DNA from: Oscillospiraceae bacterium | GTDB lineage: Bacteria; Bacillota; Clostridia; Oscillospirales; Acutalibacteraceae | Assembly: GCA_015066385.1 (NCBI GenBank) | Contig: SVOJ01000001.1 | Span: 186,001-250,000 of the forward strand | Length of the DNA stretch: 64,000 nt | Direction of reading: 5' to 3' | Shown: in pieces, positions 39,211-45,098 of the stretch | How the letters are laid out: each line of letters starts with the position of its first letter | How positions within the stretch are numbered: the first letter of the stretch is position 1 | Program-made: the position numbers and the translations under genes | The notes under the pieces: model-generated | What the model saw: only the letters and a program-made list of their open reading frames with translations | Databases searched by the model: none | What the model was told of the DNA's origin: nothing

Positions 39211-40167
39211 TCACTCATCAAGAGGAACATATTTTTTTATGAATGCTTTGCATGCGGCATGGTATTTTTCGGGGTCGATGTCCACTGAATTTGCGTGTTC
39301 CGCACCGTCAATTGTGCATTTCTCCTTTTCACAGGATGCGGCTTCATACAATTCATCGCGCATTCTGAACGGAACAAAGGTGTCAGCCGACCCGTGCAAA
39401 AACAGGGTGGGGACTTTGGATTTTGCCACTTGATTGATAGGGTTGTTTTCTTTAATTCTCCAGCCTGCGCGCAGTTTATACCAGATTGCCGGTGCTGCGA
39501 GTGCCCATGGAGCAGGGAAATGAACGGTCTGTTCAATGACATTGTTGAACTGTTCCCAACAAGTGGAAAAACCGCAGTCTTCAATCATACATTTCACATT
39601 GTCGGGGCATTCTGCCTCACCCGATGCATTCATCACCGTTGCCGCACCCATGGAGATGCCGTGCATGATGATCTGCGCAGTGGGATCGTTTTTGACCACA
39701 TGATGGATCCAGTCCAGAATATCGAGTCTTTCAAACCAACCCATTGTGCAGGCCTTGTGTTCGCTCTTGTCATGTGCTCTTGCGCAAGGGGCAATGATAT
39801 TGAATCCGTAATTGTAATATCGCCTTGCCATGGAAGACATCTGATGCGGACGGGATGTGTAGCCGTGGCAAACGATTGCCCATTTGTTGCTCGGTTTTTC
39901 CTGACGGATGACATAGGCATAAATCGCCTTGCCGTCACGGTTCATGATGCTCTCGCATTTTTCAGCCATCGCTTCAAACCATTCACCGTCACCGCAGGTA
40001 TCAAGCTCGTTGCTGCGGATTTCCTTCAATCGTTTCGGGTCGGGATCGTTTTTCGGCAATTCATATTTTCCTCTGAAATCCGAAAGCAGCATAAAATGCG
40101 ATAATTCACAATAAGTAAATGCCAGAAGTCCTGCACCGATGGCGGCGCCTGCCAAAAACTTTTTCAT
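39211..40167 (-). CDS. Alpha/beta hydrolase in the sulfonation operon
   Basis: A 318-residue alpha/beta hydrolase with an N-terminal hydrophobic segment (residues 3-22, possible anchor). It shows the oxyanion region CHGYTSRPHQM, the nucleophile elbow HGISMGAATV (Ser near residue 170), the acid Asp in HGSADTFVPF (about 259) and the catalytic His in DGAEHANSV (about 288). It resembles serine aminopeptidase/cephalosporin-deacetylase-like esterases. It starts 15 bases after the cysN stop with AGGAGG upstream, so it is the last gene of the cysC/Q-cysD-cysN transcript. It may process the sulfonated product or its precursor, which is inference from position. Confidence 0.82.
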   Translation of the reverse strand: MKKFLAGAAIGAGLLAFTYCELSHFMLLSDFRGKYELPKNDPDPKRLKEIRSNELDTCGDGEWFEAMAEKCESIMNRDGKAIYAYVIRQEKPSNKWAIVCHGYTSRPHQMSSMARRYYNYGFNIIAPCARAHDKSEHKACTMGWFERLDILDWIHHVVKNDPTAQIIMHGISMGAATVMNASGEAECPDNVKCMIEDCGFSTCWEQFNNVIEQTVHFPAPWALAAPAIWYKLRAGWRIKENNPINQVAKSKVPTLFLHGSADTFVPFRMRDELYEAASCEKEKCTIDGAEHANSVDIDPEKYHAACKAFIKKYVPLDE

Positions 40168-40182
40168 TCGAATTCCTCCTGA

Positions 40183-41979
40183 TTAAATACAGAACAGTTT
40201 TTGTGCCAGTTCGTCTGCAATGGATTTGACGGGAGTTGGATAGTAAAAATCAAAATCAGCCGCACGGCGATTGTCCACACCGACCCATACGGTTTTGATG
40301 TTGTCGGTTCTGATAATCTGGCGCAAGGTGTCGAGTTCGTCGGGAATCAGTTCATTTGCGGTGATGATGAGAATATGACCCGCATCCAGCAGAATATTGG
40401 AAACCTCGCCGAGTCTGCGGATGTGTTCATTGCGTTCTTCGGGGCTGTTCATGGAGTCATCGGATTTGATGTCGGAATTGACACCGTACAACACATTGCC
40501 GATACCGAGATAATAGGCAATTTTGCCGTTTTCAAGCAGCTTCTTTTCGAGCTTGCGGGCAATTTCTTTTTTGTCAATCTGAATTTTACCCGTAAGAATA
40601 ATCAACTGAGCCTGTTGTCTGTAATAACTTTCGCGCTCATGCGGGGTCATGCTGCTTTGAATCCACTTTACATTGCGGCGGATGAGTTTCTTTTCGAGTT
40701 CTTCGTCTTCTTCTACATCCGTAATAATGCCGCCGCCTGCAATTTCGTAATCGTCCACAATGACAAAACGGGAAGTGTCTGCACACTGCCCCGAAAGGTC
40801 AAACGCAAGCGGTCTTTCAAAATGAAGAAGGCACTGTGCTACTTCGTGGCGATCCACGGTCTGTTTTTCGCTGTTTTCAAGTGTGGAGGCATTGAGAACA
40901 CCCAGAATCTTTTCAACACGCATCCCGACAGCGGCAGAACCGATTTTTACTTTGTACACTTTTTGTGTGTCAAGCGGTTCTTTGCCGAGCCAGAAAATAC
41001 TTGTTTTTACAAGACTGCCCGTTCGCGGGGGCTGTTCTCCGATCTTGCAACACAGTTCACCGCGCTTGGCATAAATCTGTTCCGTCATGCAGAAGCCTGT
41101 TGCCTTGCCCGTGGAAACACTTGTCTGTTCGGGTTCGTTGAAGCCCTCAATGGAATGTACCTTTGTTTTTTTGCCCGAGGGCAGAAACATCACTTCGTCG
41201 CCGATTGACAGTTTGCCCGCACTCACCGTACCTGCGATGATGCGGCGTTCATCGCGGCTGTTTGTGAACTTGTAAACATCCTGCACCCACATACGGAATG
41301 CATGGTCGTCGCCGTCTGCAATCTCCTTGAATGCATCAAGTGCTTCCAGGACGGTAATGCCGTCATACCACGGCAGTTCTGCGGCTTTGGAAGCAATGTT
41401 GTAGCCTTCCACAGCCGAAATCGGAATAAAGTGCTGCGGAACGATTTCCACATTGCTTAAAAATGCACTGTATTCGGTAACAATATTTTCATACACACAC
41501 TGACGGTCTTCTTCGGGAATCAGATCAAGCTTGTTGACAAGCACAACAACCTGACGAATGCCGAGCATCGACAGCATATAACCGTGCCTGCGGGAATTTT
41601 CCATGATGCCTTCGTGTGCATCAATCACAAGCAAGGCAGCTTCTGCACGGGAGGCACCCGTGATCATGTTCTTTAAAAATTCAATGTGTCCCGGGGCATC
41701 AATGATGATGTATTTCCTTTTTTCTGTTTTGAAAAAACAGCGTGCTGTGTCAATGGTAATGCCTTGTGCACGTTCATCCTTGAGTGCATCAAGCAGAAAC
41801 GCATATTCAAACGGCTTGTCCGTTCTTCTGCAAAGGGCTTTGATTTGCTCAAGTTTACCCTGCGGCAGGGAATTGGTGTCTGCAAGCAGTCTGCCGATGA
41901 CGGTGCTTTTGCCGTGGTCAACATGGCCCACAATGACAATGTTCATTTCCTTGTTGTCAAAAACATTACATGTATCCAT
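40183..41979 (-). CDS. cysN: Sulfate adenylyltransferase GTPase subunit with a degenerate APS-kinase-like C-terminal domain
   Basis: A 598-residue protein. Residues 1-430 are CysN: the GTPase motifs GHVDHGKST (about 18-26), DAPGHIEF and NKLDLI, then EF-Tu-like beta-barrels. The last 150 residues align by eye with APS kinase ([19 protein letters not shown] against LxxxGxxxYLLDGDNVRx[21 protein letters not shown] against ENIRRxGEVAxLxxDAG), but the Walker A site reads [11 protein letters not shown] instead of [11 protein letters not shown], so it cannot bind ATP in the normal way. CysN with CysD makes adenosine phosphosulfate from sulfate and ATP, driven by GTP. It overlaps cysD by 14 bases. 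Confidence 0.92.
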
Positions 41980-42850
41980 CTTTACGCAGTTCCTCCAATC
42001 CGCCGCCGTCTTCCTTGTCCTGTTCTCTGCCCGAACGTTCGGCTATATTCGCAAATTTGCCTGTTTTGAGTTCTTCAATAATTTCGTCAATGTTTCCGGC
42101 CTCCGATTCCACGGGGCTTGTGCACGGCCAGCAACCCAAGGAGCGGTAACGTTTACCGTCCCCCTGATTGAAATACAGCGGCACAACGGGAACATTTTCA
42201 CGTCGGATATATTCCCAGACATCCAATTCCGTCCAATCCAACAGGGGATGGATGCGGATGTGCGTGCCGGGCTTGAAATCGGTTTTGTACTGTCCCCAGA
42301 ATTCGGGCGGTTGATCGCCGATATCCCAGTCGTTGTTTTTGTCGCGGGGAGAAAAATAGCGTTCTTTGGAACGGCTTCCTTCTTCGTCTGCACGGATGCC
42401 GAGAATAACACCCGTGTAGGGTTCAATATTTTCATCACGTTCATATAATCCCGTGTCATGGTTCATTCTGTAACGCGGCCACTCACCGGAAAGGGTGCAA
42501 CGTAAGGCTTCTGTCTTTAAATTCTTGCAACATTCAATTCTTGTGCAGTTGCCGTCGGGAAAGGTCTTTTTTTGCTCGAGCGCATCGGCATTTTCGCCGT
42601 AGACCATGTCCAGTTTCCACTCACGGGCAAGACGGTCACGGTATTCGATCATTTCCGGGATTTTGTAGTGTGTGTCAATATGTACAAGCGGAAACGGCAC
42701 ATGACCGAAAAAGGCTTTTCTTGCAAGGGCAAGCAGAACCGTGGAGTCCTTGCCGATGGACCACAGCATGCAAAGATTGCCGAAGCGGTTATAGGCTTCA
42801 CGCAGAATGTGAATGCTTTTGCTTTCGAGATTGTCAAGATGTGTCATCAT
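41966..42850 (-). CDS. cysD: Sulfate adenylyltransferase small subunit
   Basis: A 294-residue PP-loop ATP pyrophosphatase. The P-loop reads [11 protein letters not shown] (about residues 30-40), followed by [11 protein letters not shown] and the C-terminal [14 protein letters not shown] typical of CysD. It transfers AMP from ATP to sulfate and works as a complex with CysN. The C-terminal tail ([20 protein letters not shown]) is also typical. It lies between the CysC-CysQ fusion gene (10-base gap) and cysN (overlap). No PAPS reductase or sulfite reductase gene follows. Confidence 0.95.
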
Positions 42851-44301: not shown

Positions 44302-44329
44302 TAACAAAACAAAAAACTTTACTTTGGTG

Positions 44330-44358
44330 TTGCATAATTGTTGCGCAGATGATATAAT
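44330..44358 (+). promoter_or_regulatory. Promoter of the sulfotransferase gene
   Basis: TTGCAT (44330-44335) and TATAAT (44353-44358), spacer 17, about 23 bases before the ATG. The -35 match is weak. Confidence 0.5.
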
Positions 44359-44381
44359 TCTTGCGAAAGGATGTGGACAGT

Positions 44382-45098
44382 ATGATGGTAACAGTCATCG
44401 GCAGAGGCCATTCGGGCACCCGTGCCGTTTCCAATACACTCGCAGAAAGCGGATTTTTCATGGGAGAACCTTTAAACGGTTCGTGGGATCTCATTCCCCC
44501 CGAAAAAATGTACAAAGCCTGTGCCGTATTCGGTGATTATGTGAAATACGAAGGCGATCTCAAATGGGATTTTTCAAAAGTGCTCAACATGGAACCCACC
44601 GCCGAATTCAAAACGCTGATTGAAGAATATCTGCATTCCGTGCTGAGCAGCGATGCACCCGACAAGGGCTGGAAAATTCCCGAAACCACACTTTGCTATC
44701 CGTGGATCATCAAAATGTTCCCGGATATGCACTATATTCATTGGGTGCGCGACCCCCGTGACTGCATTCTCGGCGGCCATGTAACAGACGATATGGCACA
44801 GTTTCACATTGAAACACCGCAAACGGACGATGTACGTGAAGTGCGCGCGATCTCGTGGAAATATCAGCGCGAACTGATGAATGCCACACCTGACCCGAAA
44901 CACATTATCCGTCTTCGCTTTGAAGATATGGTTTTCAATCAGGACGAAACACTTGAAAAATTAGGAGCTTTCCTCGGCAGAAAAATGGCAAAGATCCCCA
45001 TGCGCCCCGATTCCGTAGGTCGCTATAAAACCGCCGAAGGTAAAGTCATGTATGATTTCTTCCTTGAAGACCTCAAGGAATGCGGCTACGAAATCTGA
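44382..45098 (+). CDS. PAPS-dependent sulfotransferase
   Basis: A 238-residue single-domain sulfotransferase. The 5'-phosphosulfate-binding loop is GRGHSGTRAVS (residues about 6-16) and the 3'-phosphate motif is IHWVRDPRDCILGG (about 120-133), with a core helix RLRFEDMVFNQDETLEKL typical of the family. There is no signal peptide, so it works in the cytoplasm on a small molecule, sugar or lipid precursor. It is divergent from the operon that makes its donor and clears its by-product, which strongly supports the assignment. The acceptor is unknown. The first of two Met codons (44382) is taken as start, with AAAGGA upstream. Confidence 0.85.
   Translation: MMVTVIGRGHSGTRAVSNTLAESGFFMGEPLNGSWDLIPPEKMYKACAVFGDYVKYEGDLKWDFSKVLNMEPTAEFKTLIEEYLHSVLSSDAPDKGWKIPETTLCYPWIIKMFPDMHYIHWVRDPRDCILGGHVTDDMAQFHIETPQTDDVREVRAISWKYQRELMNATPDPKHIIRLRFEDMVFNQDETLEKLGAFLGRKMAKIPMRPDSVGRYKTAEGKVMYDFFLEDLKECGYEI

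Follow-up and report, generated by a model that had tools for sequence, protein, structure and literature searches.

A clostridial PAPS supply and sulfotransferase locus that appears to be half of a larger, apparently undescribed sulfonation system

Introduction

In the gut anaerobe Bacteroides, BT_0416, encoded beside the 3'-phosphoadenosine 5'-phosphosulfate (PAPS) synthesis genes Bt_0411-Bt_0415, makes cholesterol sulfate, as described in PMC9417993. Here, we analyzed a locus of similar logic in a stretch of 64,000 nucleotides of an Oscillospiraceae bacterium (assembly GCA_015066385.1, contig SVOJ01000001.1, positions 186,001 to 250,000), hereafter called the window. It encodes CysD, CysN, a CysC-CysQ fusion, and, on the opposite strand, a sulfotransferase (ST), which an earlier note on this DNA had grouped into a dedicated sulfonation module. 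As in the BT_0411-BT_0416 cluster described in PMC9417993, PAPS biosynthesis genes adjoin a PAPS-dependent sulfotransferase in a gut anaerobe, a likeness of gene content. Unlike that cluster, the clostridial locus has an ST of 237 residues, fused CysC and CysQ, a CysN with a dead adenosine 5'-phosphosulfate (APS) kinase domain, and partner enzymes of Gfo/Idh/MocA, isomerase, and sulfatase-fold types. We conclude that the module is real and appears to be half of a larger, apparently undescribed system. In the reading that we favor, at a probability of about 0.53, the window holds the PAPS supply and sulfonation half of a two-locus PAPS-dependent pathway acting on a small sugar or cyclitol.

Single parts of this system recall other described enzymes. 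In the ATP sulfurylase of filamentous fungi, the inhibitor PAPS is bound by an APS-kinase-like domain, which, like the one attached to the clostridial CysN, need not be catalytic (PMC3779200). Unlike the fungal enzyme, the ATP sulfurylase is here of the CysDN type and its domain is probably of independent origin, from CysNC. The latter, a bifunctional ATP sulfurylase GTPase/APS kinase that we take to be NodQ-type, has the same domain order as the clostridial CysN; in Clostridia, unlike in CysNC, it is CysQ that bears the live kinase, the one at the C terminus of CysN being dead. The words Firmicutes, Clostridia, and CysQ are absent from the main text of a survey of gut sulfotransferases (PMC10932419), and we found no description of a sulfotransferase pathway with this enzyme set in the open-licence full text of PubMed Central.

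The Sulfotransferase and the PAPS Supply Genes

The coordinates of the open reading frames (ORFs) and the family scores bear out the gene set and orientations reported earlier: cysD, cysN, the CysC-CysQ fusion gene, and an alpha/beta hydrolase gene are read leftward from 44240, divergently from ST (table 1). ST matches Pfam Sulfotransfer_3 with 56.6 bits for a cut-off of 27, which places it in this family. From a public species set, 80 of the 229 confirmed ST relatives were retained and read, and 62 of these were aligned with the window protein for motif analysis and phylogeny. The 5' PAPS loop G6-R-G-H-x-G-T-R13 and the motifs K97-x-P-E100 and R122-x-P-R-D126 are invariant in the 63 aligned sequences. 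The 3' phosphate-binding site of sulfotransferases usually includes a serine. In this site of ST, Arg122 is invariant, and the serine position is a glycine in the window protein and 44/63 sequences and a serine in 8/63. Thus, of the two PAPS-binding motifs claimed at first, the 5' loop and the arginine of the 3' site stand, but not its serine. The AlphaFold2 model of ST (predicted local distance difference test [pLDDT] 94.5, predicted template modeling score 0.89) opens directly with the catalytic fold, without an additional N-terminal segment. Its fold neighbors in the PDB are PAPS sulfotransferases, namely CurM ST, TPST, 3-OST, and SULT, with a top template modeling score of 0.61 and 11-18% identity. 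The invariant motifs and the modeled fold support catalysis of the PAPS type, in which Glu100 likely acts as the base; the loss of the 3'-site serine calls for caution. Sequence searches with ST returned zero matches in the PDB and in phages, and in plasmids only Cereibacter sulfotransferases that are 25-27% identical.

The PAPS supply genes are equally well defined by their family scores. CysD reaches 352.5 bits against an NCBIfam subfamily cut-off of 195. The fusion scores 226 bits for apsK (cut-off 138.7) and 253.8 bits for CysQ (equivalog cut-off 228.8), and its CysC half keeps the P-loop GLSGSGKST and the LDGDN motif of an active APS kinase. CysN lies slightly below the cut-off of TIGR02034 (322 vs. 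336).

PAPS may also be consumed by sulfate reduction. The host assembly (G000; 3.17 Mb in 52 contigs, 97.4% complete), of which the window is part of contig 21, has no match to sulfite reductase (NIR_SIR); the identical search was positive in 11/14 control genomes. The PAPS reductase family PF01507 matched CysD, one further ORF, and, below the cut-off, an ORF that we read by eye from its sequence as TilS-like. The further ORF, of 260 codons (L002:1480-2262(+), near 93763 of contig 21), is probably a prophage gene, as it lies directly downstream of a terminase large subunit gene. Since NIR_SIR is unmatched and the sole other PF01507 gene above the cut-off is phage-adjacent, the PAPS made by this locus most likely feeds sulfonation. 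The lack of reductases first noticed in the window therefore holds genome-wide for the NIR_SIR and PF01507 families, AprA and sulfate transporters not having been searched. Together with the co-occurrence described below, it supports the idea of a dedicated sulfonation module, and none of the tests made contradicts it.

Distribution and Co-occurrence

We searched for ST in samples of genomes drawn from the family, order, class, and phylum of the host. It was detected in 2/150 genomes of the family (E ≤ 1e-5), the sole same-genus genome sampled lacking it, in 12/394 genomes of the order, and in the host only among 398 genomes of the phylum (both at E ≤ 1e-15). In the order sample, the full CysC-CysQ fusion was found in 10 of the 12 ST-containing genomes and in none of the 382 others, and a match to its APS kinase half in 12/12 versus 5/382 (E ≤ 1e-30); Fisher P values computed for the co-occurrence with ST ignore shared ancestry. 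In the class sample (391 genomes), a match spanning both halves at E ≤ 1e-40 was restricted to the host. At most four candidates per genome were scored in these fusion searches of the order and class. Among 13 ST-containing genomes searched at E ≤ 1e-20, 11 carry the fusion and the other two a frame of CysNC length. Finally, 45 of 50 genomes with public ST loci have an APS kinase match (E ≤ 1e-10), 16 across both fusion halves, of which one is truncated by the end of its contig.

The genes are also physically linked. In the host, G102, and four genomes of genus g376, one with CysN in two pieces, ST is read divergently from an adjacent CysCQ-CysD-CysN set, and a fifth g376 genome has a short contig ending shortly after CysCQ. 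This arrangement is retained in two families. The retained ST relatives are 54-95% identical to the window protein, and 54-61% outside Bacillota. According to record titles, they belong to Bacillota groups, Armatimonadota, Chloroflexota, Lentisphaerota, Verrucomicrobiota, Planctomycetota, and others, and originate from goat, sheep, and buffalo gut, from sediments, from lakes, and from other metagenome-assembled genome (MAG) projects naming no habitat. In the ST tree, Bacillota form one group (one change, support 89/96, below the starred level), and Lentisphaerota, Planctomycetota, and Verrucomicrobiota are scattered. This phylogeny suggests that ST has likely spread by horizontal transfer.

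A Second Locus of Partner Enzymes

Neighborhoods of the ST loci were delineated with a codon-usage gene caller. In the 68 of 80 loci where ST was called as its own gene (the 12 left out include L163), the families encoded within four genes of ST are F2 (21 loci), F1 (19), CysN (18), CysD (17), CysCQ (15), F4 (14), F8 (6), and the window hydrolase (1). Across all fetched DNA, 21 of the 35 loci with titles other than Bacillota have F1, 5 have CysN, and none has CysCQ; among the 45 Bacillota loci, F1 was found in 5 and CysCQ in 16. The cys set and the partner set occur together in L089, L092, L102, and L118.

The partners are of sugar or cyclitol type. F2 and F8 are Gfo/Idh/MocA dehydrogenases and F4 is a xylose-isomerase-like TIM barrel, a combination reminiscent of the inositol and 3-keto-glycoside pathways (IolG/IolE/IolI, BT_2158/BT_2159 type). 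Unlike the enzymes of these pathways, F2 and F4 score far below all NCBIfam equivalog cut-offs. F2 is nearest to inositol or sugar dehydrogenases (93.1 and 88.1 vs. 355 for IolG), and F4 to hydroxypyruvate isomerase, ribulose-phosphate epimerase, and IolE (27.2 vs. 290 bits for the latter); solved relatives of F4 include IolI. To our knowledge, the inositol and 3-keto-glycoside pathways carry no sulfotransferase.

F1 belongs to PF00884 and shares the fold and domain composition of the family S1 sulfatases; the best fold matches of its model (pLDDT 79.4, less well predicted near 159-178 and 256-262) are S1 sulfatases, mostly acting on carbohydrates. Hydrolytic S1 sulfatases need a formylglycine motif, C/S-x-P-x-R. 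This motif is absent from all 26 F1 sequences, three of which do not cover the site, and the 23 that do have a threonine at the formylglycine position. We therefore rejected F1 as a normal sulfatase. F1 further differs from these enzymes by its linkage to a sulfotransferase, and in locus L163, from a planctomycete MAG, F1 and ST form a single 727-residue chain with both Pfam domains. In a search run at E ≤ 1e-30, all 17 ST-containing clostridial genomes, made up of the host, G102, those with L086-L089, and 11 from the order, had F1 at E ≤ 1e-200, as did one (G013) of the 63 family genomes devoid of ST. Two more of the latter gave partial matches (6.7e-35 and 1.2e-32) that were not counted as F1.

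In the host, the partner genes form a row, F4-F1-F2-F2, with gaps of 9-12 bases, on a contig separate from that of the window (contig 41, 254639-258948). In 10 of 14 fetched stretches, the gene caller placed F4 next to or near F1; the other four comprise two short contigs, one stretch with F1 uncalled next to F4, and G013, without F4. Upstream of F4 in the host (L189, about 8570-8640), a promoter-like TTGACT is followed by a perfect inverted repeat, TTGTATG-N7-CATACAA, a possible operator shared with L201 and, apart from one change in the spacer, with L200. The repeat is not above chance in the window (5 found vs. 4.1 expected). In L200, which comes from a close relative of the host, the region between the ST and F4 genes encodes a row of eight short paralogues (131-161 residues; 1059-4603(-)).

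The Degenerate Kinase Domain of CysN

At the C terminus of CysN (residues 458-569) lies an APS-kinase-like domain that the earlier note had not described. An intact P-loop and LDGD motif are absent from this domain in the window protein and in 13/13 aligned clostridial relatives, L091, with CysN in pieces, being left out; both motifs are intact in 5/5 aligned nonclostridial CysNC proteins. L112 retains GNRGTGK, without the subsequent Ser/Thr. Conversely, the aligned CysC-CysQ proteins retain the kinase motifs, those of L103 (unread bases) and L094 (misaligned there) not being judgeable. In five loci, of which four are titled or placed as Armatimonadota, ST has a CysNC with intact kinase motifs encoded nearby. 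The dead domains share the signature YLGIGN..LYGV..DI...ER.EHIRR, with small variations, and this retention suggests that the domain is under selection. By analogy with the fungal ATP sulfurylase, it may have a role in binding PAPS. In L118, an unfused CysC gene (9091-9708(-)) adjoins that of a dead-kinase CysN (6419-8209(-)), a possible intermediate en route to the CysC-CysQ fusion.

Other Features of the Loci

The alpha/beta hydrolase, included in the module by the earlier note, probably does not belong to its core. It was found in three loci in all, and in the second genus (G102) it is relocated and 34% identical. ST likely starts at the ATG at 44385, 44382 being also possible and the TTG at 44361 disfavored. 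For the divergent intergenic region, promoter-like sites are weakly in excess in the 221-base stretch scanned (3 observed vs. 1.1 expected). The host encodes a second Sulfotransfer_3 protein, of 376 residues, on contig 47 (L006:8721-9851(-)). Its relatives (36% identical) are divergent to CysN(C) in G630 and near a CysN(C) frame in G643. We rejected it as the enzyme of the module, as it was found in only 3 of 16 genomes searched at E ≤ 1e-10 (13 with ST, 3 without), all three with ST.

Two further families adjoin ST elsewhere. In 11 loci that lack cys genes nearby (e.g., L119:1214-1681(-)), the opposite strand next to ST encodes a protein of about 150 residues without a Pfam match (one member tested); L108 has one gene in between. 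In f91, a gene of the glucosamine-6-phosphate isomerase family (one member tested) adjoins ST, and such a gene follows ST in the Oscillospiraceae MAG loci L056, L062, L101, L104, and L105.

Table 1. Positions of the features of the locus in the window
Feature	Position	Strand	Evidence
ST, sulfotransferase, 237 aa, Sulfotransfer_3, core of the module	44385..45098	+	Pfam, AlphaFold2 model, fold neighbors, invariant motifs
CysC-CysQ fusion	42861..44240	-	Family scores, intact P-loop and LDGDN motif, co-occurrence with ST
APS kinase half of the fusion	about 43716-44174	-	Family scores
3'(2'),5'-bisphosphate nucleotidase half of the fusion	about 42918-43649	-	Family scores
CysD, sulfate adenylyltransferase small subunit	41966..42850	-	Family scores; 84-86% identical in linked relatives
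CysN, sulfate adenylyltransferase large subunit (GTPase) with C-terminal pseudo-APS-kinase	40183..41979	-	Family scores, alignment
Degenerate APS kinase domain of CysN, residues 458-569	40273..40608	-	Pfam match; P-loop and DGD motif gone
Divergent intergenic region common to both directions	44241..44384	.	Leftward sigma-70-like site TTGACT-17-TATAGT, 44301-44273
Alpha/beta hydrolase (Hydrolase_4), probably a noncore neighbor	39211..40167	-	Pfam; in three loci only

Discussion

ST is probably part of a previously undescribed pathway yielding a sulfated sugar-like molecule. CysD and CysN would convert sulfate and ATP to APS, and the CysC half of the fusion APS to PAPS. ST would then use PAPS to sulfonate a small sugar or cyclitol, and the CysQ half would clear the inhibitory product PAP (3'-phosphoadenosine 5'-phosphate) next to the site of PAPS synthesis. 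The dead kinase domain of CysN most likely docks CysC-CysQ or senses APS or PAPS. The sole ground for a sugar or cyclitol acceptor is the type of the partner enzymes; F4, F1, and F2 of contig 41 may make or process it by oxidation, isomerization, and reduction. A threonine nucleophile suits phosphoryl transfer. For this reason, and because an F1-ST chain would pass a freed hydroxyl directly to ST, F1 would most likely be a phosphatase or phosphodiesterase freeing the hydroxyl that ST sulfonates. A PAP-driven reverse reaction was rejected, as the module retains a PAP phosphatase.

Several observations weigh against this two-locus pathway. The serine of the 3' site of ST is not conserved, and the PAPS may be shared with the second Sulfotransfer_3 protein of the host. 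ST lies away from the cys genes in the f91, f99, and f100 genomes, and 5 of the 50 genomes with public ST loci, all MAGs, lack an APS kinase match (G1279, G1280, G1283, G1298, and G1306). G013, which is 82% complete, carries F1 without ST, and the F1 matches of G538, G630, and G013 each contain one internal stop. No promoter motif common to the two host loci was found (no common 10- to 12-base word). The co-occurrence counts are not independent, since the ST-containing genomes of the order belong to only five genera and the host is closely related to those of L086 and L087.

Sulfation of an extracellular polysaccharide or surface glycan, with the Gfo/Idh/MocA and isomerase genes making the precursor sugar, is a tentative alternative, clearly less probable. 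For Kiritimatiellae, there are reports of sulfated exopolymers and of clusters of sulfotransferases, and for Pontiella of sulfotransferase and glycan clusters (PMC7356697). The partner enzymes are of sugar type, a GH16 gene lies immediately upstream of the F4 row of the host, and a flippase-type Polysacc_synt family (F25) is encoded at a distance of a few genes from ST in four Bacillota loci without nearby cys genes (e.g., L117:5604-7151(+)). Because of this recurrence, we moved a weight of 0.02 to the glycan from the two-locus pathway. However, no recurrent glycosyltransferase family was seen among the printed neighbor families, read by eye without a full family scan. Neither does ST have an N-terminal extra segment before its catalytic fold, and its high identity across phyla is easier to reconcile with one small, unchanging substrate than with variable polymers.

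The sulfate could also be temporary: ST would sulfonate a sugar, the dehydrogenases and isomerase would act on the intermediate, and F1 would remove or transfer the sulfate. This sulfation-desulfation cycle, the main chemical rival to F1 as a phosphatase or phosphodiesterase, seems unlikely. It would account for the F1-ST fusion and for the carbohydrate sulfatases that are mostly the nearest solved folds of F1, and regulators of AraC type (four loci) or LacI type (three loci) and solute-binding transporter genes (one member per family tested) are found beside the cluster. Conversely, the formylglycine motif is lacking in the 23 F1 members of 26 that cover the site. A related and quite unlikely proposal is that many phyla use a sulfate ester instead of a phosphate as a handle on a small sugar or cyclitol, which ST would add, the Gfo/Idh/MocA enzymes and isomerase would process in sulfated form, and F1 would swap or move.

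The sterol or lipid acceptor considered in the earlier note did not find support. Sulfonation of sterols, bile acids, or lipids as by BT_0411-BT_0416 follows the same logic of PAPS genes next to a sulfotransferase (PMC9417993), and the closest ST relatives are of gut origin by record title. It is nevertheless improbable, as ST is also found in records titled sediment and lake MAGs and its partners are of sugar or cyclitol type. Ordinary assimilatory sulfate activation with ST adjacent by chance, to which cysDNC as the first genes of assimilation and the draft state of the host genome would lend themselves, is strongly disfavored and the least probable of all, given the unmatched sulfite reductase, the restriction of the full fusion to ST-containing genomes of the order sample, and the divergent linkage retained in two families.

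The two-locus pathway thus remains our preferred reading. The CysC-CysQ fusion and the dead kinase retained on CysN suggest that the PAPS supply was rebuilt for sulfonation alone. That ST is so conserved in different phyla suggests a single fixed product of bacteria that, according to record titles, live in the rumen and hindgut, sediments, and lakes. A sulfatase fold that has threonine in place of formylglycine and is encoded next to a sulfotransferase poses a chemical puzzle open to testing, and the F1-ST fusion provides a direct handle on the mechanism.

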